DNA from: Sphingopyxis sp.
Lineage (GTDB): Bacteria; Pseudomonadota; Alphaproteobacteria; Sphingomonadales; Sphingomonadaceae
Direction: 5' to 3'
Length of the DNA: 64,000 nucleotides
Assembly (NCBI GenBank): GCA_030145715.1
Contig: JAIXHQ010000005.1
Location: 1-64,000, forward strand
The translations under genes and the position numbers were made by a program. The notes beneath the pieces were generated by a model. The model had not been told where the DNA came from. It searched no databases and worked only from the letters and a program-made list of their open reading frames with translations. Positions 6,160 to 19,197 of this stretch are shown here, one piece after another. Every line of letters starts with the position of its first letter. Position 1 is the first letter of the stretch.

Positions 6160-7314
6160 ATGGCGTCGGCGCGCGACGACGACAATATCCCGGTGGCCAG
6201 CGGCTCGCCGGATGCGTCGTTGACGCAGGACGACAGTTTCACCGCGACCAGCCATGCCGGGCTGACCTATCCATGGGGCGACGCCGCGCCGGGCGTCGGC
6301 GAAACGATCCGCATCGCGCCGGGGATCAGTTGGGCACGGATTCCGATGCCGGGATCGCTGGGCCATATCAATAGCTGGCTGCTCGACGACGATGCCGACA
6401 GCGACGCGAGCGGCGATGCGAGCGGCGTGGCGATCGTCGACACCGGCATCTGCCTGACCCTGTGTTCGGATGCGTGGAAGGCGCTGTACGCCGGGCCGCT
6501 GAGCGGTCGGCGGATCACCCGCGTCATCGGCACCCATCTTCACCCCGACCATATCGGCCTGGCCGGCTGGATCGCCAAAAAGCAAGGCGTGAAACTGTGG
6601 ATGACGCGCGGCGAGATGCTGACCGCGCGGGCGATCGTCGCCGATTCGTCCGACACCGCGCCCGAAGAGGCGCTGGCGCAATCGCGCGCCGCGGGCTGGG
6701 ATGAAGCGGCGGTCGAAGCGGCCCGAACGCGCGGCTGGAACATGTTCCAGCGCATGATATTCCCCCTGCCGCGCAGCTATGTGCGGATCGAGGATGGCGA
6801 CCGGATCGACATGGGCGCGCACCAGTGGCGCGTCGTCACCGGATCGGGACACAGCCCCGAACATGCCTGTCTGTGGAACGAGGCAGAGGGCGTGCTGGTA
6901 TCGGGCGACCAGGTGCTGCCGCGCATCAGTTCGAACGTGTCGGTCAACATCACCGAACCCGACGCCGATCCGCTGGGCGAATGGCTGGCGTCGATCGACA
7001 AGCTGATCGCCACCGTGCCCGCCGACGTCACCGTCTGTCCGGCGCATGGCGAACCGTTTCGGGGGCTGCACGTCCGCCTGATGGCGCTGCGCGACGAGCA
7101 TCGTATGCGGCTCTATAATCTGGCCGAGGCGGCGGCAAAGGCGCCGATGCGCGCCGTCGACAGCTTTCCGCTGTTGTTCAACCGCCCGATCGGCGAACAT
7201 AATCAGGGGCTGGCCACCGGCGAGGCGCTGGCGCATCTGAAGCGGCTGGAGGTCGAAGGCCGCGTCCGGCGCGAGGACCGCGACGGGGTGTGGTGGTATC
7301 ACGGCGTCGCCTGA
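6160..7314 (+). CDS. MBL-fold metallo-hydrolase
   Basis: A 384-residue metallo-beta-lactamase-fold hydrolase. The metal ligands are visible: HLHPDH (about residues 127-132), the His of GSGHSPEH (about 229), the Asp of VSGDQVLP (about 249) and the His of CPAHGEP (about 295). This is the HxHxDH binuclear pattern of glyoxalase II-like enzymes. A low-complexity Asp/Ser insert (DDDADSDASGDASG) sits between two strands near residue 80. The C-terminal 80 residues look like an added winged-helix (LAHLKRLEVEGRVRRED). The substrate is unknown. It starts 4 nt after trcR and ends at a bidirectional hairpin. Confidence 0.88.
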   Translation: MASARDDDNIPVASGSPDASLTQDDSFTATSHAGLTYPWGDAAPGVGETIRIAPGISWARIPMPGSLGHINSWLLDDDADSDASGDASGVAIVDTGICLTLCSDAWKALYAGPLSGRRITRVIGTHLHPDHIGLAGWIAKKQGVKLWMTRGEMLTARAIVADSSDTAPEEALAQSRAAGWDEAAVEAARTRGWNMFQRMIFPLPRSYVRIEDGDRIDMGAHQWRVVTGSGHSPEHACLWNEAEGVLVSGDQVLPRISSNVSVNITEPDADPLGEWLASIDKLIATVPADVTVCPAHGEPFRGLHVRLMALRDEHRMRLYNLAEAAAKAPMRAVDSFPLLFNRPIGEHNQGLATGEALAHLKRLEVEGRVRREDRDGVWWYHGVA

Positions 7315-7336
7315 GCCGCTGACCGGCAGGGAATAT

Positions 7337-7372
7337 GGAAGGGCGGCCCCGGATATGGAGCCGCCCCTTCCC
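7337..7372. terminator. bidirectional terminator-like hairpin
   Basis: GGAAGGGCGGC and GCCGCCCCTTCC form a long stem with one bulge between the convergent MBL-hydrolase and bdcA genes. There is no clear T-run on either side, so the termination role is inferred from position. Confidence 0.5.
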
Positions 7373-7402
7373 AGCGTCAGGCACCAGCATCAGGCGCCGG
7401 CA

Positions 7403-8116
7403 TCAGGCGCCGAACGCGCCGTCGATCGTGTGCATCGCGCCGGTGACAAACCCTGCTTCGGGGCCGGCGAGCCATGCCACCATGCCGGCGACCTCTTCTG
7501 GCCGTCCATGGCGCTTGATCGCCATGAAGCTGTGCATCAATTCGCGCATCGGGCCATCTTCCGGGTTGGCGTCGGTGTCGATCGGGCCGGGTTGCACGAT
7601 GTTGATGGTGATGCCGCGCGGGCCGAAATCGCGCGCCAGCCCGCGCGCCATGCCCTGTAACGCCGATTTGCTGAGTGCATAGGATGCCATGCCGGGGATC
7701 GGCATACGGTCGCCATTGACGGATCCGATGACGATGATGCGCCCGCCCTCCGGCATCTGTCGCGCCGCTTCGACCGACGCATGATAGGGGGTGGAGACGT
7801 TGATGCGGATCAGCCGGTCGATCTCGTCGGGATCGATGTCGAGCGCGTCGCCGAACACCGCGATACCGGCGTTGACGACCAATATGTCGAGCGGTCCGCT
7901 GTCGCGCACCCGCGCGATCACGGCGTCGCGGTCGCTGCTGTCGGTCGCGACCGCGCTGGTGCCCGTGTCTGCCGCAAGCTGTTCGGCCGCTTCGCGCGAG
8001 CCATTATAGGTAAAGACGACCTTGGCGCCGTCGGATGCGAAGCGGCGCACGATCGCCGCGCCGATGCCGCGGCTACCGCCGAGGACGAGAACGGATTTTC
8101 CTTGAAAATCGGACAT
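7403..8116 (-). CDS. bdcA: SDR-family c-di-GMP-binding biofilm dispersal mediator BdcA-like protein
   Basis: This 237-residue short-chain dehydrogenase has the cofactor loop GGSRGIG (about residues 13-19), the NAG motif and catalytic Ser, Tyr and Lys (YALSK near 146-150). From memory, its sequence is strikingly close to E. coli BdcA throughout (for example EAARQMPEGGRI and FVTGAMHTIDGAFGA at the very end), and the length is identical. In E. coli, BdcA binds cyclic-di-GMP and promotes biofilm dispersal, and an NADPH-dependent reductase activity is also possible. It is divergent from a TetR-family gene, matching the E. coli bdcA/bdcR pairing. Two copies of the same operator lie between them. 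Confidence 0.9.
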   Translation of the reverse strand: MSDFQGKSVLVLGGSRGIGAAIVRRFASDGAKVVFTYNGSREAAEQLAADTGTSAVATDSSDRDAVIARVRDSGPLDILVVNAGIAVFGDALDIDPDEIDRLIRINVSTPYHASVEAARQMPEGGRIIVIGSVNGDRMPIPGMASYALSKSALQGMARGLARDFGPRGITINIVQPGPIDTDANPEDGPMRELMHSFMAIKRHGRPEEVAGMVAWLAGPEAGFVTGAMHTIDGAFGA

Positions 8117-8138
8117 TGGAAGATTCCTTGCTTATTAA

Positions 8139-8154
8139 TGTAAGGATCACTACA
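8139..8154. promoter_or_regulatory. candidate BdcR operator 1
   Basis: TGTAAGGATCACTACA has inverted ends TGTA-N8-TACA. Its reverse complement, TGTAGTGATCCTTACA, matches the second site at 8186 in 13 of 16 positions. It lies 22 bp upstream of the bdcA start. Confidence 0.6.
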
Positions 8155-8185
8155 TATAACTGCGAAGACCATCGTCAAGGTATTT

Positions 8186-8201
8186 TGTAGTGAACGATAC
8201 A
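8186..8201. promoter_or_regulatory. candidate BdcR operator 2
   Basis: TGTAGTGAACGATACA, extendable to TTTGTA-N8-TACAAA, overlaps the GTG start codon of the TetR gene. It lies 47 bp centre-to-centre from operator 1. Together they fit autoregulation plus repression of bdcA. Confidence 0.6.
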
Positions 8202-8783
8202 AATAAATCCCGCTCGCGCGGTCGGCCGCGGCGCTTCGATCCCGACGCAGCCGTCGCCACGGCGCAAAAGCTTTTCCATGCGCGCGGCTATGACGCGGTC
8301 AGCGTCGCCGACGTGACCGATGCGCTCGGCATCAATCCGCCCAGCTTTTACGCGGCCTTTGGCAGCAAGGCGGGGCTGTATCGCCGCGTGCTCGACCATT
8401 GGACGGCGACCGAGGCGGTTCCGCTGGGCGACATTCTGCGTCCTGATGTCCCGGTCGCCGACGCGCTTGCCGCCGTATTGGAGGATGCCGCGCGCCGTTA
8501 TGCGTCCGACCCGGCGGCGGGCGGCTGTCTTGTCCTCGAAGGCACGCGGTGCAACGACGATGGCGCGCGCGCGGCCGCGCATAGGCTCAACCGCGATGCC
8601 GAAGCCTTCATTCGCGATTATGTCGCCGCGCGCCATCCCGAGGTGGCGGACGAGGCGGCCGATTTTGTCAGCATGACGATGTCGGGCCTGTCGGCCAAGG
8701 CGCGCGGCGGATATGGCCTGCCCCGGCTGCTCGCGAGTGCGCGTCTGGCGGGCGGCGCGCTCGCCCGCATCCTGCCCGCCTGA
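8190..8783 (+). CDS. bdcR: TetR-family transcriptional regulator, BdcR-like
   Basis: A 197-residue TetR/AcrR-type repressor. The N-terminal DNA-binding domain reads GRPRRFDPDAAVATAQKLF then the helix-turn-helix VSVADVTDALGINPPSFYAAFGSK (about residues 32-55). The C-terminal half is the ligand/dimerisation domain. The start is a GTG within an inverted repeat, with AAGG 8 nt upstream. Divergence from bdcA and the similarity of both proteins to the E. coli pair support the BdcR name, which I give from memory of that locus. It probably represses both bdcA and itself through the two matching operators. Confidence 0.82.
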   Translation: MNDTNKSRSRGRPRRFDPDAAVATAQKLFHARGYDAVSVADVTDALGINPPSFYAAFGSKAGLYRRVLDHWTATEAVPLGDILRPDVPVADALAAVLEDAARRYASDPAAGGCLVLEGTRCNDDGARAAAHRLNRDAEAFIRDYVAARHPEVADEAADFVSMTMSGLSAKARGGYGLPRLLASARLAGGALARILPA

Positions 8784-8850: not shown

Positions 8851-10224
8851 ATGCAACGATCCTGTGCCCAGCTCGCCCTTGCCGCCGCCTTGCTTGCCGC
8901 CGCACCCGTCCATGCCAAGCCCGCCGATGCCGACACGGCCAAGACGATATTGAAGGACAGCATCGCCATCCCGACGGTCGAGGGACGCGGCAAGGTGCCC
9001 GAACTCGCGGCCTATTATGCCGGTGTGCTGAAGGCGGCGGGCTATGCCGATGCCGACATCGCCATCACGCCGATGGGCGAGACCGCGACCTTTGCCGCGA
9101 CGCTGCATGGCACGACCAAGCAAAAGCCGATCGTGCTGCTGGGCCATATGGACGTCGTCGAAGCCGATCCAAAGGATTGGACGCGCGACCCGTTCGTGCC
9201 GGTCGAGGAAAATGGCTATATCTTTGGCCGCGGGTCGGAGGACAATAAGTTCGACGTGTCGATGATGGTCGCGACGATGGCGCAGCTCAAGAAGGATGGA
9301 TTCAAGCCGAAGCGTTCGATCATCCTGCTGCTGTCGGGCGACGAGGAAACGTCGATGACGACGACGCGCGCGCTTGCCGCCCAATATAAGGACGCCGAAT
9401 TCGCCCTGAACGGCGATGGCGGCGGCGGGACGATCGGCGATGACGGCAAGCCGAAATATTACGGGTTGCAGGCGGGCGAAAAGACCTATGCCGACTTTAC
9501 GCTGGAGGTGACAAACCCCGGCGGCCACAGTTCACGCCCGTCGGCCACCAACGCGATCGTCCAGCTTTCGAACGCGCTGGCAAAGGTCGGCGCCTATCGT
9601 TTTACACCGCAACAGAATGAACTGACCAAAGTCGGGATGCCGATCGTCGCCGATCAGGTCGGCGGCGACATCGGCGCGGCGCTGAAGGCCTTTGCCGCCA
9701 ACCCGGCCGATGCCAAGGCGATCGCCGCGATCCGCGCCGACCCCGAATATGTCGGACAGATCGGGACGACCTGTGTCCCCACGCTGACCAAGGGCGGCCA
9801 TGCCGAAAATGCCCTGCCCCAGCGCGCGACGGCGAACATCAACTGCCGCATCTTTCCCGGCGTGCCGGTCGAAACGGTGCGCGCGGAACTGGAAAAGGTC
9901 ATCGGCGATCCCGCCGTCAAGGTGAACAGCGATCCCGACGCGAGCGCCAGCGATGCATCGCCGCTGCGTCCCGACGTCGTCGCGGCGGTGACCAAGGCGG
10001 TCCATGCCCGCGCGCCGGGGCTGCCGATCATCCCGTCGATGAGCGCGGGCGCGACCGACAGCTTTCATTTCCGCGCGCAGGGCGTACCCAGCTATGGCGT
10101 CGCCGGTCTTTTTTCCAAGGCCAGCGACAGTTTCGCCCACGGCCTGAATGAGCGCGTGCCGGTCGATGCGATCGTACCGGCCCTCGCGCATTGGGACTAT
10201 TTGCTGAGAAACCTGTCGAAATAG
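8851..10224 (+). CDS. exported M20-family metallopeptidase
   Basis: A 457-residue zinc peptidase of the M20 (dipeptidase/ArgE/DapE) family. A cleavable signal peptide (about residues 1-22, ending VHA) directs it to the periplasm. Metal-site motifs are LLGHMDVVEAD (His about 98), GRGSEDNKF (Asp about 130) and SGDEETSM (Glu about 164). A lid/dimerisation domain begins near GGHSSRP (about 229). Family members hydrolyse dipeptides or N-acyl amino acids, and the exact substrate cannot be read from sequence. It is convergent with the TetR gene that follows, with stop codons 3 bp apart. Confidence 0.9.
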   Translation: MQRSCAQLALAAALLAAAPVHAKPADADTAKTILKDSIAIPTVEGRGKVPELAAYYAGVLKAAGYADADIAITPMGETATFAATLHGTTKQKPIVLLGHMDVVEADPKDWTRDPFVPVEENGYIFGRGSEDNKFDVSMMVATMAQLKKDGFKPKRSIILLLSGDEETSMTTTRALAAQYKDAEFALNGDGGGGTIGDDGKPKYYGLQAGEKTYADFTLEVTNPGGHSSRPSATNAIVQLSNALAKVGAYRFTPQQNELTKVGMPIVADQVGGDIGAALKAFAANPADAKAIAAIRADPEYVGQIGTTCVPTLTKGGHAENALPQRATANINCRIFPGVPVETVRAELEKVIGDPAVKVNSDPDASASDASPLRPDVVAAVTKAVHARAPGLPIIPSMSAGATDSFHFRAQGVPSYGVAGLFSKASDSFAHGLNERVPVDAIVPALAHWDYLLRNLSK

Positions 10225-10227
10225 GGG

Positions 10228-10818
10228 TCAGACGAGCGCGTCGACCGCGCGTTCGATCATCGCCGCCGCCGCTTCCGCCCCGAAGCTGGCGGCGTCGAGC
10301 GACAGTTCCAGCCATAGGCCGTCGACCATCGCGGTCAGCATGATCGCCAGCCGGTCGGCATCGCGCGCGCCACAGGCGGTCAGCAATTCCGTCAACCGCT
10401 GGCGATAACCGGCATAGCTGTCCGCATGGATCGCCGCCATGCGCGCGTCGCTGCGCGCCAGCGCCCAGAATGCGGTCCAGGCGCCCAGCAGTTCGGGATC
10501 GGTCACCGGGGCGCGAAAGCTGGCGGTCAGATAGGCGCTCAGCCGTCTTCGCGGGTCGTCGCCCGCCGCATCGACCGCGCCCGCGAACACGCCGTCCATC
10601 CGATCGCTCGTCGCCTGATAGGTCGCGGCGACCAGATCGTCGATGCCGCCGAAATAATGGCGCAGCAATCCCGGTGAGACGCCGGCCATCGCGCAGATCG
10701 CCCGAACATTGGTGCCCGCCAGCCCATGGGCGGCCAGACATGCCGCCGTCGCATCGATCAGCGCCGTCCGGCGGGCATCGGCGCTTTCGCGCGTAAAGGC
10801 TTGGCGAGCGGCGGGCAT
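10228..10818 (-). CDS. TetR-family regulator, BetI-like
   Basis: A 196-residue TetR repressor whose HTH (TNVRAICAMAGVSPGLLRHYFGG) closely follows the BetI pattern of choline-responsive regulators. The C-terminal BetI-type domain (GAWTAFWALARSD) is also present. I chose the ATG at 10818 (MPAARQAF). An ATG at 10830 would place the start codon inside the 22-bp palindrome. Most of the 586-residue track ORF lies antisense to the Rieske gene and is shadow. Divergent position suggests control of the Rieske/FAD operon, and the ligand may be choline- or betaine-like, which is inference only. Confidence 0.85.
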   Translation of the reverse strand: MPAARQAFTRESADARRTALIDATAACLAAHGLAGTNVRAICAMAGVSPGLLRHYFGGIDDLVAATYQATSDRMDGVFAGAVDAAGDDPRRRLSAYLTASFRAPVTDPELLGAWTAFWALARSDARMAAIHADSYAGYRQRLTELLTACGARDADRLAIMLTAMVDGLWLELSLDAASFGAEAAAAMIERAVDALV

Positions 10819-10819
10819 G

Positions 10820-10841
10820 TTGTTATACATATGTATAACAA
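10820..10841. promoter_or_regulatory. 22-bp perfect palindrome, probable TetR operator
   Basis: TTGTTATACATATGTATAACAA reads identically on both strands. It fills nearly all the 33 bp between the TetR and Rieske oxygenase start codons and overlaps possible upstream ATGs of both genes. Repressor bound here would block both promoters. Confidence 0.75.
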
Positions 10842-10851
10842 GGAACGATCC

Positions 10852-12018
10852 ATGGCAACTGCACCGCTTCGCGATTCGAATATCGACCCTCTGGACGGCT
10901 GGTCGCTGCCTGCCTGGACCTATAGCGATCCCGATTTCCATGCCGCGGAAATGGAGCGGATCTTTCGTCCGAGCTGGCAGGTCGTGTGCCACGACAGCGA
11001 CATTCCGAACGTCGGCGACTGGCACAGCATCGATTATTGCGGCGAAAGCGTCATTCTGGTCCGCGGCGCCGACCGGACGGTGCGCGCCTTTACCAATGTC
11101 TGCCGCCACCGGGGTTCGCGCCTGGTCGATGGGGCGACGGGCTGTGCGAAGAAACTCGTCTGCCCCTATCATGCCTGGACCTATGAACTCGACGGGCGGC
11201 TGACCGGGGTGCCCGATTCGGCCAGCTATCCGGCGCTGGACAAGGGGAAGGCGGGGCTGGTCCCCGTCGGGCTGGAACGGTGGCGCGGCTTTTGGTTCGT
11301 GCGGCTGGCCGACGATGGCGGCCCGTCCGTCGCGGCGATGATGGCACCCTATGAAGCGATGATCGCGCCTTACCGGTTCGAGGAACTGGGCGCGCTGGGC
11401 CGCGTCACGCTCCGCCCGCGTGCGGTGAACTGGAAGAATGTCGGTGACAATTATTCGGACGGGCTGCACATCCCCGTCGCGCATCCCGGCCTGACGCGGC
11501 TGTTCGGCAAAAGCTATGGCGTCGAGGCCGAGGATAATGTCGATCGCATGTGGGGCGACCTGATCGACCGGCCATCGGTCAATTGGTCCGAACGCATGTA
11601 TCAGCGGTTGCTGCCCCCGGTCCCGCATCTTCCGCAGGCGAACCAGCGCCACTGGCTTTATTTCAAGCTGTGGCCGAACGTCGCCTTTGACATCTATCCC
11701 GACCAGGTCGATTTCATGCAGTGGCTGCCGACCGGCCCGACGACCTGCCTGATCCGTGAAATATCCTATGTGCTGCCCGATGATCGGCGCGAAATGAAGG
11801 CGGCGCGCTACCTCAACTGGCGGATCAATCGTCAGGTGAACGCAGAGGACACCGAACTCATCACCCGCGTTCAGATGGGGATGCAATCGAAAAGCTTTTC
11901 GATGGGGCCGCTCAGCGACAAGGAAGTCTGCCTCAAGCATTTCTGTGCGCGGATGCGCGCGATCATTCCCGAATCCCGCCTTGAACAAGCCCCGCGTGCG
12001 GGATGGAGCAGAGCATGA
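10852..12018 (+). CDS. Rieske [2Fe-2S] oxygenase, alpha subunit
   Basis: A 388-residue ring-hydroxylating-type oxygenase subunit. The Rieske cluster ligands are C-R-H (about residues 84-86) and CPYH (about 104-107), spaced C-x-H-x17-C-x2-H. The mononuclear iron site is seen in NYSDGLHIPVAHPGL (His about 205 and 210), and a later Asp (YPDQVDFMQWLP) may be the third ligand. The family includes aromatic dioxygenases and N-demethylating enzymes such as glycine-betaine and stachydrine demethylases. No beta subunit, ferredoxin or reductase gene is adjacent. The ATG at 10852 follows AAGGA. The last four bases overlap the next gene's start (ATGA). Confidence 0.9.
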   Translation: MATAPLRDSNIDPLDGWSLPAWTYSDPDFHAAEMERIFRPSWQVVCHDSDIPNVGDWHSIDYCGESVILVRGADRTVRAFTNVCRHRGSRLVDGATGCAKKLVCPYHAWTYELDGRLTGVPDSASYPALDKGKAGLVPVGLERWRGFWFVRLADDGGPSVAAMMAPYEAMIAPYRFEELGALGRVTLRPRAVNWKNVGDNYSDGLHIPVAHPGLTRLFGKSYGVEAEDNVDRMWGDLIDRPSVNWSERMYQRLLPPVPHLPQANQRHWLYFKLWPNVAFDIYPDQVDFMQWLPTGPTTCLIREISYVLPDDRREMKAARYLNWRINRQVNAEDTELITRVQMGMQSKSFSMGPLSDKEVCLKHFCARMRAIIPESRLEQAPRAGWSRA

Positions 12019-13619
12019 CCAAAGCCTATGACGCCCTGATTATCGGTGCCGGCCACAACGGCCTTGTCTGTGCCTTTTATCTTGCGAAGGCGGGGCTGAA
12101 GGTCCGCATCGTCGAGGCGCGCGACGTCGTCGGTGGTGCCGCCGTGACCGAGGAATTCGCGCCGGGGTTCCGCAATTCGGTCGCAAGCTATACCGTCAGC
12201 CTGCTCCAGCCCAAGGTGATCGCCGACATGAAGCTGGCCGATCATGGCTATCGCGTCATCGAACGGCCGATCAGCAATTTCCTGCCGCAGGAGGATGGCG
12301 GCTATCTGAAGCTTGGTGGCGGGTTGGAGCGGACGCAGGCCGAGTTCAGCAAATTTTCCGCCCGCGATGCGGCGATGCTGCCCGCTTATTACGACGCGCT
12401 CGAAAATGTCGCCGAATTGCTCCGCGACCTCGCGCTGCGCGTGCCGCCCAATGTCGGCGAAGGGCTGCGCACGCTGTTCGACGGCGCGCGGCAGGGGCGG
12501 CGCTTTGCGACCCTGAACCTCGATCAACAGCGCGACGTGCTCGACCTGTTCACAAAATCGGCGCGCACGATGCTGGACGCCTGGTTCGAAAGCGAGGCGG
12601 TCAAGGCCGCCTTTGGCTTTGACGCGGTCGTCGGCAATTATGCCAGCCCCGACACGCCGGGCAGCGCCTATGTCCTGTTGCATCACGTCTTTGGCGAAGT
12701 GAACGGCAAAAAGGGGGCATGGGGCCACAGCGTCGGCGGGATGGGCCGGATCACCGAGATCATGGCCAAGGTGTGCCGCGCCATGGGGGTCGAGATCAGC
12801 CTGGAAAGCCCGGTCGCGAAAGTGCTGGTCGATGGCGGCAAGGCGGTCGGCGTCAGGCTGGTCGGCGGCGAGGAAATCGCCGCGGCGCGCGTGATCGCGA
12901 ACGTCGGGCCCAAGCTGCTGTACGAACGGATGATGGACGCATCCGACCTGCCCACCGGTTACGACCGCCGGATCCGGGGATTCAAGGCGGGCAGCGGCAC
13001 GTTCCGCATGAATGTCGCGCTGTCGCAGTTGCCGAAATTCACCTGCCTGCCCGAACCGGGCGAGCATCATCAGTCGGGCATCATCCTGGCCCCCACGCTC
13101 GACTATATGGACCGCGCCTTCCTCGACGCCAAACAGCATGGCTGGTCCAAGGCGCCGATCGTCGAGATGCTGATCCCCTCGACCGTCGACGACAGCCTGG
13201 CCCCCGCCGGTCAGCATGTCGCGAGCCTGTTCTGCCAGCAATTCGCGCCCGAACTGCCCGACGGCCGCGACTGGGACGATGAAGAGGAAGCCGCCGCCGA
13301 CTGCATCATCGACACGGTCGAAAAACATGCGCCCGGTTTTCGTGCGAGCATCATCGCCCAGACGCGCCTGTCGCCAAAGGGGCTGGAACGCAAGTTCGGG
13401 CTGGTCGGCGGCGACATCATGCACGGCAACATGAGCCTCGATCAATTGTGGGCCGCGCGCCCGGTGCTGGGCAATGGCGGTTATCGCGGCGCGGTGAAGG
13501 GCCTGTATATATGCGGGGCGGGGACGCATCCGGGCGGCGGCGTCACCGGGGCGCCGGGGCATAATGCGGCCCAGGTGATCCTGCGCGACCGGGGCCTGTT
13601 CGCGCCGCGCTGGCGTTAG
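12015..13619 (+). CDS. FAD-dependent oxidoreductase, phytoene-desaturase/PYROXD2-like
   Basis: A 534-residue flavoprotein with the N-terminal dinucleotide fold DALIIGAGHNGLVCAFYL (about residues 5-22) followed by the EARDVVGGAA motif, and the C-terminal FAD signature GAGTHPGGGVTGAPGHNA shared by CrtI-like enzymes. It resembles the PYROXD2/NAD(P)-FAD oxidoreductase branch rather than true carotenoid desaturases, and no carotenoid genes are nearby. The ATG overlaps the Rieske stop codon as ATGA, so the two proteins are translationally coupled and probably act on the same substrate. It ends within a triple palindromic repeat. Confidence 0.88.
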   Translation: MTKAYDALIIGAGHNGLVCAFYLAKAGLKVRIVEARDVVGGAAVTEEFAPGFRNSVASYTVSLLQPKVIADMKLADHGYRVIERPISNFLPQEDGGYLKLGGGLERTQAEFSKFSARDAAMLPAYYDALENVAELLRDLALRVPPNVGEGLRTLFDGARQGRRFATLNLDQQRDVLDLFTKSARTMLDAWFESEAVKAAFGFDAVVGNYASPDTPGSAYVLLHHVFGEVNGKKGAWGHSVGGMGRITEIMAKVCRAMGVEISLESPVAKVLVDGGKAVGVRLVGGEEIAAARVIANVGPKLLYERMMDASDLPTGYDRRIRGFKAGSGTFRMNVALSQLPKFTCLPEPGEHHQSGIILAPTLDYMDRAFLDAKQHGWSKAPIVEMLIPSTVDDSLAPAGQHVASLFCQQFAPELPDGRDWDDEEEAAADCIIDTVEKHAPGFRASIIAQTRLSPKGLERKFGLVGGDIMHGNMSLDQLWAARPVLGNGGYRGAVKGLYICGAGTHPGGGVTGAPGHNAAQVILRDRGLFAPRWR

Positions 13620-13660
13620 GGTCCTGACCCTAGGGTCCTGACCCTTAGGGTCCTGACCCT
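13618..13660. repeat. three tandem palindromic units between convergent genes
   Basis: AGGGTCCTGACCCT occurs at 13618-13631, 13632-13645 and 13647-13660. Each unit is an inverted repeat (AGGGTC-ct-GACCCT), and adjacent units also form GACCCTAGGGTC. The array covers the flavoprotein stop codon at one end and overlaps the permease stop codon at the other. It may act as a bidirectional transcription barrier. Confidence 0.85.
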
Positions 13661-14987
13661 AGGCGGCGGGCCGGGCGCGCCGCCGCATCGCGAGAAAAAT
13701 CGGCAGGCCCGCGGCGGTCAGCCCCAGGCTCCACAGGCCGGCTTCCAAGCCCGCCCCGTAAAAGGCCCAGCAGCTATAGAGAAAGCCGAGGATGGTCAGC
13801 GCCGCGAAACCGGGCGAGGCGCGGATGTCGCCGTCATTCTCCAGCTTTAGCGCCGCGAGCGCCCCGACGATGTAAAAGATGATCGCGGTCGACGTCGTCA
13901 CCTTGACCATGAAACTGAACAGGTCGGCCAGCCCGCGCGAAAAATTGGCATAGACGATGATGCTGGCGCAGGTGCTGGAAATCAATTGCGTGATCCACGG
14001 CGATGCAAAGCGATTGTCGCGCGCGAACATCGCGGGGAGCAAGCGGCGATGGGCAAGGTCGCGGGGAATTTCACCCTGTAGCAGGACAAAGCCGTTGAGC
14101 GCGCCCAGCGCGGCGATCGCGGCGAACAGCGCGACAACCTGTCCCGCCGATGGGCCGATCAGCGTCCCGAAAAAAGCGGCATAGGCGGCGTTGGACTCCT
14201 GAAGCGTCGCCAGCGGCAGCATCAGCGTGACGGTGGTGCTGGACAGAAGATAGAGAAGGCCGGTCGCGGCGGCGGCGATCAGCATCGAACGCGGGATCGT
14301 CCGTTCGGGATCGCGGACCCGGTCGCTGACGACGGCCGCGCTTTCAAAGCCCAGCAGCGCAAAAAGGGTCAGCGTCGCGGCGGCGCCGACATTGTTCAGG
14401 CTGACCGGCTGTGTCCCCGCCAGCGTCGGCGCGTCGGCGCGTCCCGTCGCGAGCGCCCAGATGGCGACGAGGATCGCGCCGACGATCGGTATCAGCTTGA
14501 GCGCGAGGGTCAGCATCTGCGCATTGCCCGCGCGGCGGACCCCGAACAGGTTGACGATGGTGAACAGCCAGATGAAGCCGATGGCGATCAGCGCGGGACC
14601 GGCCCCGCCGGCCGCCAGCGCCGGCGCCAGGATCGACAGGTTGCTGATCGCTGCGACGGCCAGCGTCGCGACGACCGTCCAGCAACTGATCCAATAGCTC
14701 CACGACACGACGAACCCGGTGCCGGGACCGAACGCCGCCGCGCCATAGGTAAAGGATGCGCAGCCCGTCGGCAGCCGCTTTGCCAGTCGGGCAAAGGCGA
14801 GCGCGAGGCACAGCGTCCCCGCGATCGACACGCCCCAGCCGATGATCGCATTCCAGCCAAGCGGCGCCAGGTCGCGGGGAAGCAGGAACACCCCCGACCC
14901 GATCATATTGCCCATGCCCAGCGCGACGCACATCAAAAGGCCGAGCTTTTGGCCCGGCCTTTCGCTGTTGGTCGTCGTCGCGGTCAC
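13659..14987 (-). CDS. APC-superfamily amino acid/amine permease
   Basis: A 442-residue inner-membrane transporter with about 12 hydrophobic spans. The first span carries the APC signature GLLMCVALGMGNMIGSGVFLLP, where the GSG substrate-binding loop sits, and the VVSDRVRDPERTIPRSM loop is also typical. APC members move amino acids or small amines, often by exchange or proton symport. The start is a GTG 4 nt after the TonB receptor stop, so the two are probably one operon. That suggests the same solute crosses first the outer, then the inner membrane. Confidence 0.9.
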   Translation of the reverse strand: MTATTTNSERPGQKLGLLMCVALGMGNMIGSGVFLLPRDLAPLGWNAIIGWGVSIAGTLCLALAFARLAKRLPTGCASFTYGAAAFGPGTGFVVSWSYWISCWTVVATLAVAAISNLSILAPALAAGGAGPALIAIGFIWLFTIVNLFGVRRAGNAQMLTLALKLIPIVGAILVAIWALATGRADAPTLAGTQPVSLNNVGAAATLTLFALLGFESAAVVSDRVRDPERTIPRSMLIAAAATGLLYLLSSTTVTLMLPLATLQESNAAYAAFFGTLIGPSAGQVVALFAAIAALGALNGFVLLQGEIPRDLAHRRLLPAMFARDNRFASPWITQLISSTCASIIVYANFSRGLADLFSFMVKVTTSTAIIFYIVGALAALKLENDGDIRASPGFAALTILGFLYSCWAFYGAGLEAGLWSLGLTAAGLPIFLAMRRRARPAA

Positions 14988-14991
14988 CCGG

Positions 14992-17451
14992 TCAGAACTT
15001 GGCGCCCAATCGCGCCCCGACTGTGCGGGGCTGGCTTACCAGTATCTGCGCCCGGTCGTTGCACTGGCCGCAGTTCGAATAGCGCGCCAATTGCGCCCGT
15101 TCATCAAAGGCGTTCGCTAGGAACAACTCGAAGCTGTAGGAGCTCCATTCGAACCCGGCCGCGAAATCGACCGTCGTCGATCCCTTGATCCGGCCAAGAT
15201 CGGTGGCCTGAGCGACGCGGACATCGGCGCTGGCCGAACTGCGATGCGCGATCACTGACTGGAAATGCATCTCGCCGGGTCCGACTGGGAACTGATACCG
15301 CACCGTGGCATTGCCGTTGAACTTTGGCGTCACCGGCAGCCGCGTTCCAGCCGGCGCCGCAATGGAATTGCCCGGGCCGGTGCATGTGTAGGTCGGATCG
15401 TCGATCGCACAAAGGTCATTCTTGGTCTTTGCATCGGTGTAGGACGCCGCGGCGGTAAAGGTCAGACCGTCAGTCGCGCGAATATTGACGTCCGCCTCGA
15501 CCCCCTTGATCCGCGCGTTGGGACCATTGTGAATCTCGGTAAAGCTGTTCGCGCCAAGGAAAGAGAATTGGAAGCGCTTCCATTCCTGCTGATAGATGGC
15601 GGCGTTGAACCTGACCCGTCCATCGGCCAACGTCGTCTTGATGCCGAGTTCATAGTTGGTCAGGAAGTCGGCTTCATAAGGCATGATCGTGGCGCGGCGA
15701 TTGATGCCGCCGGGCCGGAAACCGCGCGACCATGTCGCATAAGTGAGAATATTCTCGTTCGGCTTCCAGGTCAGGTTGAGCCGATGGGTGAACCCATTGT
15801 CCTTGGTGCGCTTGGGCACCAGGCTGCCGCCGACGAAATCGGCCAGATTGGTACAGGGGCTGCGGTCAACTGCAGCGGGCAGCAAGGTGCCCCCGGGATT
15901 GTTGCGCAGGAGGGCGCCGGTGGTCGTGTAACAGCCCGCAACGCCGGTCTGCGAACTGCCGGCGCCGTTGAACGGCGTCCCGGCCGGGTTGCGGCCAAAG
16001 CCAAAGAAGCCGATCAGGCTGTTGTCATATTTATAATAGCGACCTCCGCCGGTCAGGGTAATCGTTGGGGTGATGTCGAAGCTTGCTTCGCCGAACGCGG
16101 CATAGTCCTTGTCGACGCGCTTTTGATCAGTCAACCACAGTGTGCCCGGCCGTCCGTTGACGGACAGCGCGGGGGCCAGGCCCGGCACGACATAATCCTG
16201 GAAAATCTCGTTGCTCTGGCGCTGATAGAACAACCCCGCAACGACCCGGAAGCGCTCGTCCTGTGGCGATGCGATGCGCAGTTCTTGGCTTATCTTGCGA
16301 AAATGGTCGGTCCCGACGATGAACTGGCGCGGGTCGATGTCATTGCCGGCACCATCCTCGAGATAGAAATAGCCTGCGAGGCCGCCAGAGGAAGCATAAA
16401 GCGAGTCATAGGCTTCCGAATAATCGGTATAGTCGCTGATCTGATATGTCTTGCGGTTGAGATAGGCGCCCGCATAGGTCAGGTCGAAATTGCCGATCTT
16501 ACCCTCGATCGTCAGCGCCGCCTGCATGAACTTGTCGCGTCGCGCGTCGGGGTAGAAGCGCTGAACCTGCAGGTCGCCTACGCGTGGATCCTGCGCGAAC
16601 GCGCCGTTGCTTTTCTGATTCTGATAAAGAACCGTCGGCGTCACGGTCCAATTGTCGTCGAGATCGACCTTCAACGCGGCGCGGCCGCCATAGATTTCGG
16701 CATCGTTGAAATTCTTTTTGACCAGTGCGGCGTTGTTGACGGTGATGCCGCCCGGCTGTGGTAGGAAGCTGCGCGTTCCCGCGACATTATCGATATATCC
16801 CGCGTTGCGCTGATACCAGCCGACCACGCGCAGCGCCACCATGTCACTGATCGGCGCGTTGATCATGCCATCCAGTCGGCCACCGATGCCGCCGCTCTTG
16901 ACGCTGTTGATTTCGCCGTCGACGCGGCCTTCAAAACCGGCGGTACTGGGTTTGTTGGTGATGATGCGGATCGTGCCGGCCTGCGAGGAGGCGCCATAGA
17001 GCGTGCCCTGCGGCCCGGCGAGCGATTCGATGCGCGCGATGTCATAAATATGGACGTCAAGCGTGCCGCCGATCGTCGTCACCGGCTGTTCGTCCAGATA
17101 GACGCCGACACTGGGCAGTGAACCCGAATGATTGCCGTCGCCGCCGCTAGCGACGCCGCGCATATAGACCGTCGTTACGCCGGGCTGGCTCGACTGAAAC
17201 GACACGCTGGGCAGCAGTTTCGAAAAATCTTCAAAATTGCTGATATTGAGCTGGTCCAGCTTTCTTGTGCTCAGCGCCTGGATACTGATCGGCACATTCT
17301 GCAGATTTTCCTCGCGCTTTTGCGCGGTCACGACGATTTCGTCGTCATATTTGCTGTCGGCGGCTTCCTGGGCCAGCAGCGGAGCCGATGACAATATGCT
17401 GCCCGACAAGGATGCCAAGAGCAACGCGCGGTGAGATAAGCGAACCGACAT
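14992..17451 (-). CDS. TonB-dependent receptor
   Basis: An 819-residue outer-membrane gated porin. A signal peptide (about 1-27, ending LLAQ) precedes the TonB box-like segment EIVVTAQKREENLQNVPIS. The plug domain follows (VYMRGVASGGDGNHSG, about 100; YDIARIESLAGPQGTLYGASSQAGTIRIIT, about 137-170), then the beta-barrel, ending in the expected aromatic residue (GAKF). It belongs to the large sphingomonad class that imports diverse organic compounds rather than only siderophores. It precedes the APC permease gene by 4 nt and follows the TPR-sulfotransferase gene on the same strand, about 150 bp away. Confidence 0.95.
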   Translation of the reverse strand: MSVRLSHRALLLASLSGSILSSAPLLAQEAADSKYDDEIVVTAQKREENLQNVPISIQALSTRKLDQLNISNFEDFSKLLPSVSFQSSQPGVTTVYMRGVASGGDGNHSGSLPSVGVYLDEQPVTTIGGTLDVHIYDIARIESLAGPQGTLYGASSQAGTIRIITNKPSTAGFEGRVDGEINSVKSGGIGGRLDGMINAPISDMVALRVVGWYQRNAGYIDNVAGTRSFLPQPGGITVNNAALVKKNFNDAEIYGGRAALKVDLDDNWTVTPTVLYQNQKSNGAFAQDPRVGDLQVQRFYPDARRDKFMQAALTIEGKIGNFDLTYAGAYLNRKTYQISDYTDYSEAYDSLYASSGGLAGYFYLEDGAGNDIDPRQFIVGTDHFRKISQELRIASPQDERFRVVAGLFYQRQSNEIFQDYVVPGLAPALSVNGRPGTLWLTDQKRVDKDYAAFGEASFDITPTITLTGGGRYYKYDNSLIGFFGFGRNPAGTPFNGAGSSQTGVAGCYTTTGALLRNNPGGTLLPAAVDRSPCTNLADFVGGSLVPKRTKDNGFTHRLNLTWKPNENILTYATWSRGFRPGGINRRATIMPYEADFLTNYELGIKTTLADGRVRFNAAIYQQEWKRFQFSFLGANSFTEIHNGPNARIKGVEADVNIRATDGLTFTAAASYTDAKTKNDLCAIDDPTYTCTGPGNSIAAPAGTRLPVTPKFNGNATVRYQFPVGPGEMHFQSVIAHRSSASADVRVAQATDLGRIKGSTTVDFAAGFEWSSYSFELFLANAFDERAQLARYSNCGQCNDRAQILVSQPRTVGARLGAKF

Positions 17452-17601
17452 AGAACCCCCCCTGTTGATCGCGCGCGGGTGTTGCAGCGTAGCGATACAC
17501 GAAGTTTCACCTATTTTGCCGCGTCGTCAATCGACGCCGATGGGGAATAGTCTGCCAAACGACGGTTTCGCAGAGAGTATGGCAAAATTGCCACAATTGG
17601 A

Positions 17602-19197
17602 TCAGCGCGTCGCAGGATATTGCGTCAGTGCCGGCCCCAAAGCATCTTTCAAAGGCTGGAGATGCGCCTCAACGGCCCGCCATTGGCCAACCCCGTCGCT
17701 GTTGATCGGGCGCCGGACCTGTTCCGAACTGGCCGTGCGGACGGCGCGGTCGTTGGCGTAGAAATGTAAACAAGCCTCTTCGAACGGCAGGTCCAGATAA
17801 GCGAGCAGGGCGCGCACTTCCGCTTCCAGATCGTCGATCAGCCGTTCATGGATCACGCGATGGATGCGGCCTGGCATGACATGGTCGAAGTGGTTCAGCA
17901 GATCGGTGTAGTCGGCATAATAGCGTCCCACGTCCGTCAGGCTGTAACTGAACGCCTGACCACGCGCGAAATGCTGTTTGAAGTTCGAAAAACAGCAATC
18001 CAGCGGGTGGCGTCGGGCGTCGATGATTTTCGCGCGGGGGAGGATCAGGTGGATGAAGCCGATGTGCAGCCAGTTGTTAGGCAGCTTGTCGATGTAAAAG
18101 GGCTTGCCGCTTTTGCGCTGAACGCTGGTGTCGCGCAGAAATTGTTCGCCAAGTGCCTTCGCGTCATCGGCGGTCAGTTTGGCGATGCCGCCCTGATTGC
18201 GCGCCGCGGCGAACAGCTTGGGGATGTCGGGCAGTTCCATCGTGCCCTCGACCATTGAATGGCTCGCCAATATCTGTTCGATCAGGGTCGATCCCGCGCG
18301 CGGCATACCGATGATGAAGATTGGATCGGGAATATCGGCGCCAAAATTGAGGCGCGCCTCGAAAAAGGCGGGGACATAAAGACTCTTGGCATGATCGACC
18401 GCTGCCCGCGTTTGATCTGCGTCATAGTCGATCTGCGTCTTTCTCAGCGCGTTGCCATTGGCATAGTGATGAAAGGCCGAGTCGGGCGCGCGGCGATCCT
18501 CATGGGCTTTGCCGAGCGCAAAATGCAGGTGGAAGCGGTCGGTGATGGGGAGGTCGGGCTGGTCGAGCGCGGCCAGCATCGTGGCGACATCAGCCTCGTC
18601 GAATGCGACGGTCTTGAGGTTAGCGAGGCTCCACCACACTTCCCCCAGCGTCGGTGCCAGCATCAGCGCCTGACGATAGGCGGCGACCGCATCTGCCTGC
18701 CGCCCCACCGTTTTCAGCATGTGCCCGTAGGACATCCATATCTTGGGCTGTTTGGCGAATTGCCGCAGCACCTGGTCGTACAGCGCAAGAGCTTCGTCGA
18801 ACTCACCGACCCGTCCAAGCGCCGCGGCCTTCAGATTGGCATGCATCAGATTGTCGGGGTCGATTTGTTGCAACAGCTCCAGTTCTTCGACTGCTTCGCT
18901 CGATTTGCCCTGTCGATGCAGAACCATTGCCAGATTGGACCGCGCCGCGCCGAAATCGGGCGCGATTTCAAGCGCGCGGCGCAGCAGGTTTTCGGCGTCG
19001 CGATAGCGTTCGATGCGAGCTGCCAGTTCGGCCAGCATGCGGATCGCGGCGACATCGAAGGGATCGCGTTTAAGCTGCGCCTTCAGCAGCGGCTCGGCGT
19101 CGTGCAGGCGGCCTTCGTAAAGCGCGAGGGCGGCCTCCATCATCTGGGGGTTGGCCAGTGCTTGCGCGATGGATTGCCGGGCCGGGTCGATCGCCAC
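17602..19197 (-). CDS. TPR-containing sulfotransferase-family protein
   Basis: A 531-residue fusion of an N-terminal tetratricopeptide array (about residues 20-250) to a C-terminal sulfotransferase domain. The PAPS 5'-phosphate loop is FIIGMPRAGSTLIEQIL (about 295). The region RAKIIDARRHPLDCCFSNFKQHF carries the expected Arg/Ser 3'-phosphate contacts. Such proteins commonly sit next to TonB receptors in sphingomonads (from memory), but their acceptors are unknown. The start is a GTG 4 nt after the DsbA-like gene, while an ATG at residue 19 is an alternative. A TGGCAA-N2-TTGCCA inverted repeat (17580-17593) lies just past the stop. Confidence 0.88.
   Translation of the reverse strand: MAIDPARQSIAQALANPQMMEAALALYEGRLHDAEPLLKAQLKRDPFDVAAIRMLAELAARIERYRDAENLLRRALEIAPDFGAARSNLAMVLHRQGKSSEAVEELELLQQIDPDNLMHANLKAAALGRVGEFDEALALYDQVLRQFAKQPKIWMSYGHMLKTVGRQADAVAAYRQALMLAPTLGEVWWSLANLKTVAFDEADVATMLAALDQPDLPITDRFHLHFALGKAHEDRRAPDSAFHHYANGNALRKTQIDYDADQTRAAVDHAKSLYVPAFFEARLNFGADIPDPIFIIGMPRAGSTLIEQILASHSMVEGTMELPDIPKLFAAARNQGGIAKLTADDAKALGEQFLRDTSVQRKSGKPFYIDKLPNNWLHIGFIHLILPRAKIIDARRHPLDCCFSNFKQHFARGQAFSYSLTDVGRYYADYTDLLNHFDHVMPGRIHRVIHERLIDDLEAEVRALLAYLDLPFEEACLHFYANDRAVRTASSEQVRRPINSDGVGQWRAVEAHLQPLKDALGPALTQYPATR

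Follow-up and report, generated by a model that had tools for sequence, protein, structure and literature searches.

The window, a stretch of 64,000 nucleotides, belongs to an incomplete Sphingopyxis genome (a MAG of 2.83 Mb, 87.8% complete), and the features of the locus are listed in Table 1. An earlier reading made from the letters alone (the sequence-only reading) had described a BetI-like TetR gene divergent from a Rieske oxygenase gene, and every gene it named is in place. The translational coupling that it proposed for the Rieske and flavoprotein genes is visible as an ATGA overlap of the Rieske TGA and the flavoprotein ATG; an alternative start of the flavoprotein lies at 12003. The two genes converge on an APC permease gene whose start lies 4 nt from the receptor stop, with the TPR-sulfotransferase gene before the receptor, again as described. 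The M20 peptidase and the 22-bp palindrome were absent from that reading. The peptidase matches the NCBIfam subfamily NF006596 at 613.9 bits (cut-off 349). Only one further match to the Rieske domain exists in the genome, a weaker one, so the oxygenase of the locus is the genome's one clear Rieske oxygenase.

Table 1. Genes and sequence features of the locus, with positions in the window
Feature	Position	Strand	Basis or location
M20-family peptidase with signal-peptide-like N-terminus, secreted or periplasmic dipeptidase type	8851-10224	+	PF01546, PF07687 above cut-off
BetI-like TetR-family repressor	10228-10815	-	PF13977, 86.3 bits
Predicted palindromic operator TTGTTATACATATGTATAACAA, perfect, 22 bp	10820-10841		regulator/Rieske divergent promoter
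Rieske non-haem iron oxygenase, predicted quaternary-ammonium N-demethylase	10852-12018	+	PF00355, PF00848 above cut-off
CrtI/CrtO/PYROXD2-like protein of the FAD amine oxidase superfamily, predicted N-methyl amine oxidase	12015-13619	+	PF01593 above cut-off
Three tandem AGGGTCCTGACCCT-type imperfect palindromes, terminator-like, between convergent genes	13616-13662		sequence
APC-superfamily permease, nearest basic amino acid/polyamine group	13659-14987	-	PF13520, 169 bits
TonB-dependent outer-membrane receptor	14992-17451	-	PF00593, PF07715 above cut-off
TPR-repeat protein with sulfotransferase domain	17602-19197	-	PF13469 and TPR families

The oxygenase carries the CxH...CxxH cluster motif and the two His and one Asp iron ligands of the Rieske family, and C84, H86, C104, H107, H206, H211 and D333 are invariant in 30 homologs. 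The nearest curated Rieske model is GbcA (NF058607), at 148.7 bits against a cut-off of 670, and the best match to an aromatic family, HcaE, reaches 101.8 bits against a cut-off of 830. Folds were compared using an AlphaFold model (pLDDT 89.8), whose best 18 PDB matches are the stachydrine demethylase Stc2, the carnitine oxygenase CntA and the putative oxygenase 3n0q, with aromatic enzymes ranking after them. In a tree with GbcA, CntA and Stc2, the family forms a distinct, well-supported alphaproteobacterial clade outside all three; the Stc2 sequence, a short fragment on long branches, groups with GbcA-like rows and not with the window clade. The idea of an N-demethylase-type Rieske protein stands, since the fold groups with N-demethylating oxygenases and not with aromatic dioxygenases; the comparison with the GbcA, stachydrine and carnitine enzymes gave the protein a clade of its own and no membership in those three. 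Taken together, the modelled fold nearest to Stc2 and CntA and the separate clade mark it as a predicted new subfamily of the N-demethylating kind. Asp203 occupies the aligned position of the Glu of CntA that bridges the cluster and the iron site (E205), and the residue characteristic of CntA/YeaW is therefore lacking. An aromatic dioxygenase was rejected on the fold ranking and the tree.

The gene set comprises the Rieske oxygenase, flavoprotein, BetI-like regulator, APC permease, TonB receptor, TPR-sulfotransferase and M20 peptidase. With order and orientation shuffled, it recurs in at least eight other lineages, among them Qipengyuania (L034), a Sphingobium MAG (L036), Polymorphobacter (L040), Sphingomonas (L044, L045), Caulobacter and a relative (L049, L046) and other sphingomonads (L050, L051). 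Because the genes recur in this shuffled form, their arrangement is beyond chance and they constitute a functional set conserved across Sphingomonadales and Caulobacter; shuffled neighbors are stronger evidence than plain synteny. The M20 peptidase is found in the clusters of L034, L036, L040, L043, L044, L045, L048, L050 and L150, and the TPR-sulfotransferase adjoins the receptor in all relatives that have both.

Within Sphingopyxis, the APC permease and the TPR-sulfotransferase are common to an identical 32 of 36 genomes, both being missing in G009, G015, G017 and G022. A full Rieske gene is present in 31 of these 32, and the remaining genome, G018, holds a fragment at a contig end. A carboxypeptidase resembling Caulobacter Cc2672, unlinked to the cluster, has the same pattern of presence and the same four absences. 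Since the flavoprotein tree does not place G015 and G017 within the genus and G009 is fragmentary, the four absences are not independent losses. The most telling of them is the two-sided co-loss in G022, which is nested inside the genus on that tree: its locus (L204) retains the M20 peptidase, an FAD monooxygenase and the flavoprotein, and is without the BetI-like regulator and Rieske genes on one side and without the permease, receptor and TPR-sulfotransferase genes on the other. Shuffled synteny, shared presence and absence within the genus and this co-loss all uphold the proposal that the receptor, the permease and the Rieske-flavoprotein pair form one set. The outcome named in advance as fatal to it, an aromatic Rieske protein unlinked to permease and receptor genes, was not what was found.

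The regulator contains the BetI-type C-terminal domain PF13977 and scores 106.8 bits with both NCBIfam BetI models, below the cut-offs of TIGR03384 (201.3) and NF001978 (118). The palindrome at its promoter, which can also be written TTGTTATAC-N4-GTATAACAA, was generalized to the motif TTGTTATAC-N4-GTAYAACAA. One strong site per genome occurs in 31 of the 36 Sphingopyxis genomes, always at the regulator/Rieske promoter, and the five without a strong site are those without a full-length Rieske match. An additional site with three mismatches is present elsewhere only in G000 and G024, and sites with five mismatches occur at about the control rate. The operator is recognizable at the same operon in Erythrobacteraceae, Polymorphobacter and Sphingomonas, and in Caulobacter, where the gene order differs, it lies upstream of the flavoprotein gene. 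A search of the 36 genomes and of related loci totalling about 1.1 Mb found no site above the control rate at receptor, permease or peptidase genes. From the position of the operator, the BetI-like regulator is predicted to govern the oxidation operon; uptake is tied to this operon by gene position and co-loss. To describe the system as built around the regulator, as the sequence-only reading did, is therefore too strong.

The best NCBIfam match of the flavoprotein is the carotene ketolase CrtO (NF045689; 257.6 bits against a cut-off of 1000), its score with the CrtI-family model TIGR02734 is 122.4 bits against a cut-off of 238, and its fold matches are carotenoid desaturases first, then amine oxidases. 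Its neighbors in relatives are informative about its chemistry. In L142, genes for S-(hydroxymethyl)glutathione dehydrogenase (FrmA; TIGR02818, 639.6 bits, cut-off 543.95) and S-formylglutathione hydrolase (FghA; TIGR02821, 390.1 bits, cut-off 281.7) follow directly after the Rieske-flavoprotein pair, and L141 has the same gene order (FrmA 644.1 bits, the second gene being cut by the contig end). Two families within the order show FrmA and FghA beside the Rieske-flavoprotein pair. In L199, from which the Rieske gene is absent, FrmA (647.8 bits) and FghA (414 bits) flank the flavoprotein gene, and in L200 FrmA (650.8 bits) lies 1 kb downstream of it. Because these genes adjoin the flavoprotein without a Rieske gene, the flavoprotein itself is implicated in formaldehyde release. 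More distant Rieske-flavoprotein pairs (L067, L076, L161) adjoin GCV_T-type folate proteins, which in L067 and L161 are nearest to the C-terminus of TMAO demethylase, as in flavin N-demethylases. Both kinds of neighbor indicate one-carbon loss. Gene context and fold together support demethylation well, and it is likely in the organism studied here too. FrmA is present in all 32 high-quality Sphingopyxis genomes, unlinked to the cluster, and was not found in the window MAG, which is 87.8% complete.

The flavoprotein had also been suggested as a source of electrons for the Rieske protein. It is kept without a Rieske gene in G015, G017, G022 and other families, and there it can stand beside formaldehyde-detoxification genes, so a role as electron donor is unlikely and was rejected; a second demethylase is the better reading of this protein. 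A quaternary nitrogen cannot be attacked by a flavin amine oxidase, for which reason a Rieske step followed by a flavoprotein step would be expected for a trimethylammonium compound.

Clues to the substrate come from the transport and peptidase genes. The best NCBIfam model for the APC permease, TIGR00905, gives 237.3 bits against a cut-off of 409. A carboxypeptidase of the Cc2672 type is present in ten loci of relatives (L034, L037, L040, L044, L046, L049, L060, L061, L138 and L150), for which the figure is about 2e-8 by a rough binomial estimate with close pairs merged and without correction for the number of neighbor families. It matches Cc2672 (PDB 3mtw) at 338.6 bits. The PDB names that protein an L-arginine carboxypeptidase; NF051886, whose cut-off is exceeded, is named for a Xaa-Pro dipeptidase, a name that would point to proline and count against a basic residue. 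Dimethylargininase homologs lie beside the Rieske or permease gene in L038, L062 and L138, each on a branch of its own within the Rieske clade, and in L149 an APC permease gene without a Rieske gene adjoins another. Against the NF045658 dimethylargininase cut-off of 450, the homologs of L038, L062 and L149 fall short at 202.9, 192.1 and 411.8 bits; the best solved relatives of these homologs are dimethylargininases (1.5e-49 for L038, 2.8e-17 for L138). A run of genes in L138 encodes an OPT peptide transporter, the carboxypeptidase, an M24 peptidase, the permease, the dimethylargininase homolog and the Rieske protein, and further neighbors in relatives include M16, M28, S9 and DPP-like peptidases and dipeptide ABC transporters. 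A dimethylargininase-type gene is present in 29 of 60 relatives, nearly all of them Sphingopyxis; no such gene was found beside the cluster in that genus, where most genomes carry it unlinked, as they do the carboxypeptidase. From the peptidase, carboxypeptidase and dimethylargininase neighbors, the source is probably peptides and the residue released probably basic. That this basic amino acid carries methyl groups is somewhat favored.

These observations can be assembled into a salvage pathway. The TonB receptor and its TPR-sulfotransferase partner would bring peptides across the outer membrane, and the M20 peptidase, with the Arg/Lys-type carboxypeptidase encoded elsewhere in the genome, would release a free N-methylated basic amino acid. 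The APC permease would carry this amino acid into the cell, where the Rieske oxygenase would oxidatively remove one methyl group from the quaternary (trimethylammonium) nitrogen and the PYROXD2-like flavoprotein would oxidize the remaining N-methyl groups, each being lost as formaldehyde. The methylated compound would release the BetI-like repressor, which is predicted to control itself and the Rieske operon. The observed basis is the gene order, the operator, the conservation, the fold and the link to formaldehyde genes in relatives, and for the pathway as a whole, from peptide uptake to the two successive demethylations, we estimate a probability of roughly 0.55.

The logic is that of GbcAB with dimethylglycine demethylase, in which a Rieske enzyme takes the first methyl group off a quaternary nitrogen and a flavoprotein the next. 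In contrast to that system, the window Rieske protein belongs to a separate clade and scores far below the GbcA cut-off, the flavoprotein is of another (CrtI/PYROXD2-like) family, peptide uptake genes are present and there is no adjacent reductase subunit. The gene set would be a variation on this known scheme of a Rieske and then a flavoprotein demethylation, joined to peptide uptake.

Human PYROXD2 is an orphan mitochondrial flavoprotein that presumably belongs to the same broad CrtI-like group as the window flavoprotein; we know of no Rieske partner for it in animals. Variants of PYROXD2 associate with N6-methyllysine and N6,N6-dimethyllysine (PMC9730628, PMC7803963, PMC7878905) and are linked to the N2-acetyl form (PMC13352909), and these four studies place them time after time with the strongest genetic influences on the levels of methyl-lysine. 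Such metabolite associations fit the type of reaction predicted for the window flavoprotein. Together with the basic-residue neighbors of relatives, they make trimethyl-lysine the best single guess and methylarginine the second, a ranking that we offer tentatively. The set may serve a dedicated bacterial salvage of trimethyl-lysine (and in some lineages of methylarginine) from methylated proteins, with the Rieske protein acting on the trimethyl form and the flavoprotein on the di- and monomethyl forms.

Methylarginine would instead make the pair a demethylating system for symmetric or asymmetric dimethylarginine, complementing dimethylargininase, an enzyme that cannot use the symmetric form. 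In Pseudomonas aeruginosa, methylarginine use relies on a dimethylargininase whose gene neighbors that of an amino acid permease, and APC permease genes next to dimethylargininase homologs occur likewise in L149, L062, L138 and L038; unlike in P. aeruginosa, the system here is coupled to a Rieske protein and peptide import. The PDB name of the carboxypeptidase and the frequency of dimethylargininase-type genes in Sphingopyxis agree with this reading. However, the nitrogens of methylarginine are not quaternary, so that a Rieske enzyme is chemically unneeded, the L038 and L062 homologs are below the NCBIfam cut-off and most clusters have no dimethylargininase gene, and we regard methylarginine as an unlikely main substrate.

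A classical betaine substrate (proline betaine, carnitine, glycine betaine or a choline derivative) is improbable. It would suit the BetI-like regulator, the GbcA model as best NCBIfam match of the Rieske protein and the fold ranking, and Stc2 and CntA, the solved structures closest to the Rieske protein in fold and some of the closest in sequence, share the conserved iron ligands and [2Fe-2S] motif. However, identity to these two is only 22-24%, Asp203 replaces the bridging Glu of CntA, all scores are below the equivalog cut-offs and the protein lies outside the GbcA-like, Stc2 and CntA groups on the tree. The neighbors are peptidases, a TonB receptor and APC permeases, not BCCT or ProU-type betaine transporters, and no carnitine or betaine genes lie nearby. 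The choline/betaine lead of the sequence-only reading was dropped on these grounds: the regulator falls below both BetI cut-offs, the Rieske protein far below that of GbcA, and the neighbors point to peptides and basic methylated amino acids. A choline or betaine pathway as such was rejected, with scores below all equivalog cut-offs and no betaine genes.

Plain oxidation of arginine, lysine or proline, by Rieske hydroxylation and flavoprotein dehydrogenation and with no demethylation, would account for the peptide and basic amino acid neighbors and for the amine-oxidase-like fold, but FrmA and FghA beside the pair and folate-type demethylase domains beside distant pairs call for a one-carbon product, and it is decidedly improbable. 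Modification of a carotenoid, another lipid or an aromatic compound, with the transporters adjacent by chance, has a very small likelihood despite the CrtO and desaturase matches, since the scores are far below the CrtO and CrtI-family cut-offs and the genes are both retained and lost in company with those for transporters and peptidases.

Few protein modifications are commoner than methylated lysine and arginine, and to our knowledge their recycling by bacteria after proteolysis is poorly known. In the literature searched, no bacterial Rieske demethylase was connected with trimethyl-lysine or dimethyl-lysine, nothing relevant turned up on methylarginine and Rieske enzymes, and no bacterial pathway joined peptide uptake to trimethyl-lysine demethylation. 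The gene set provides a compact, testable pathway for the recycling of methylated amino acids, and it offers a bacterial model for PYROXD2 that could help explain the human gene. If the trimethyl-lysine salvage is correct, the flavoprotein would furnish the enzyme function still missing for human PYROXD2.

Several minor observations concern the composition of the cluster. Most operon-bearing Sphingopyxis genomes encode a class A FAD monooxygenase between the Rieske protein and the flavoprotein; this flavin enzyme is absent in the window and has no role in the salvage model. The 437-aa open reading frame after the flavoprotein gene in L037 gave no match in a Pfam search. The Caulobacter enzyme Cc2672 is matched by a product of the cluster itself in relatives and is encoded elsewhere in the genome in Sphingopyxis. 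The statement that no reductase lies near the Rieske gene holds within the window; four Fer2 proteins are encoded elsewhere in the genome, and the cluster of one relative, L054, contains a Pyr_redox_2 reductase.

Within Sphingopyxis, the permease, TonB receptor and TPR-sulfotransferase each occur in two allele classes (the window compared with loci L162-L169), one with about 43-48% identity to the window and the other with 63-85%. The two classes are combined variously among the Sphingopyxis loci, and this mixing suggests cassette replacement at the permease-receptor-TPR-sulfotransferase locus. In G022, a genome nested in the genus, the flavoprotein sits on a long branch (0.16), and the Rieske, regulator, permease, receptor and TPR-sulfotransferase genes are gone from either side of it.

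The Rieske and flavoprotein genes are separated in many Sphingopyxis by a 400-aa class A FAD monooxygenase, which the window lacks. The convergent genes in the window are separated by tandem palindromes that overlap both stop codons. The SDR and second TetR genes next to the set keep that place in some members of the genus (L165, L166 and L169).

Other arrangements occur elsewhere. In genome G222, a BetI-like gene is followed by two same-clade Rieske genes in tandem, and the 20-kb locus has no flavoprotein. On an archaeal contig of a Thermoplasmata MAG, two Rieske genes stand in one row with those for a PYROXD2-like flavoprotein and a solute-binding protein of the peptide type. In loci from Gemmatimonadota, Chloroflexota and an alphaproteobacterium (L067, L076 and L161), a Rieske gene is accompanied by PYROXD2-like paralogs, two or three in number, and by a protein with the folate-type demethylase domain GCV_T, apparently a folate-coupled variant; the closest relative of the GCV_T protein in L067 and L161 is TMAO demethylase.

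Positions of the features in the window and in loci (L) of related genomes
Feature	Locus	Position	Remark
Permease, receptor, TPR-sulfotransferase	window	13659-19197	
Flavoprotein region of G022	L204	1186-5667	
FAD monooxygenase insert	L033	11152-12384	PF01494
FAD monooxygenase insert	L165	11265-12476	PF01494
Three tandem AGGGTCCTGACCCT-type palindromes	window	13616-13662	between convergent genes
MBL-fold hydrolase, SDR oxidoreductase, second TetR	window	6160-8783	adjoin the set
BetI-like gene, tandem Rieske genes	L158	7935-10273	
Thermoplasmata genes	L095	4-5921	
Rieske, PYROXD2-like paralogs, GCV_T	L067	5607-11026	
Rieske, PYROXD2-like paralogs, GCV_T	L076	10001-17158	
Rieske, PYROXD2-like paralogs, GCV_T	L161	2812-8779
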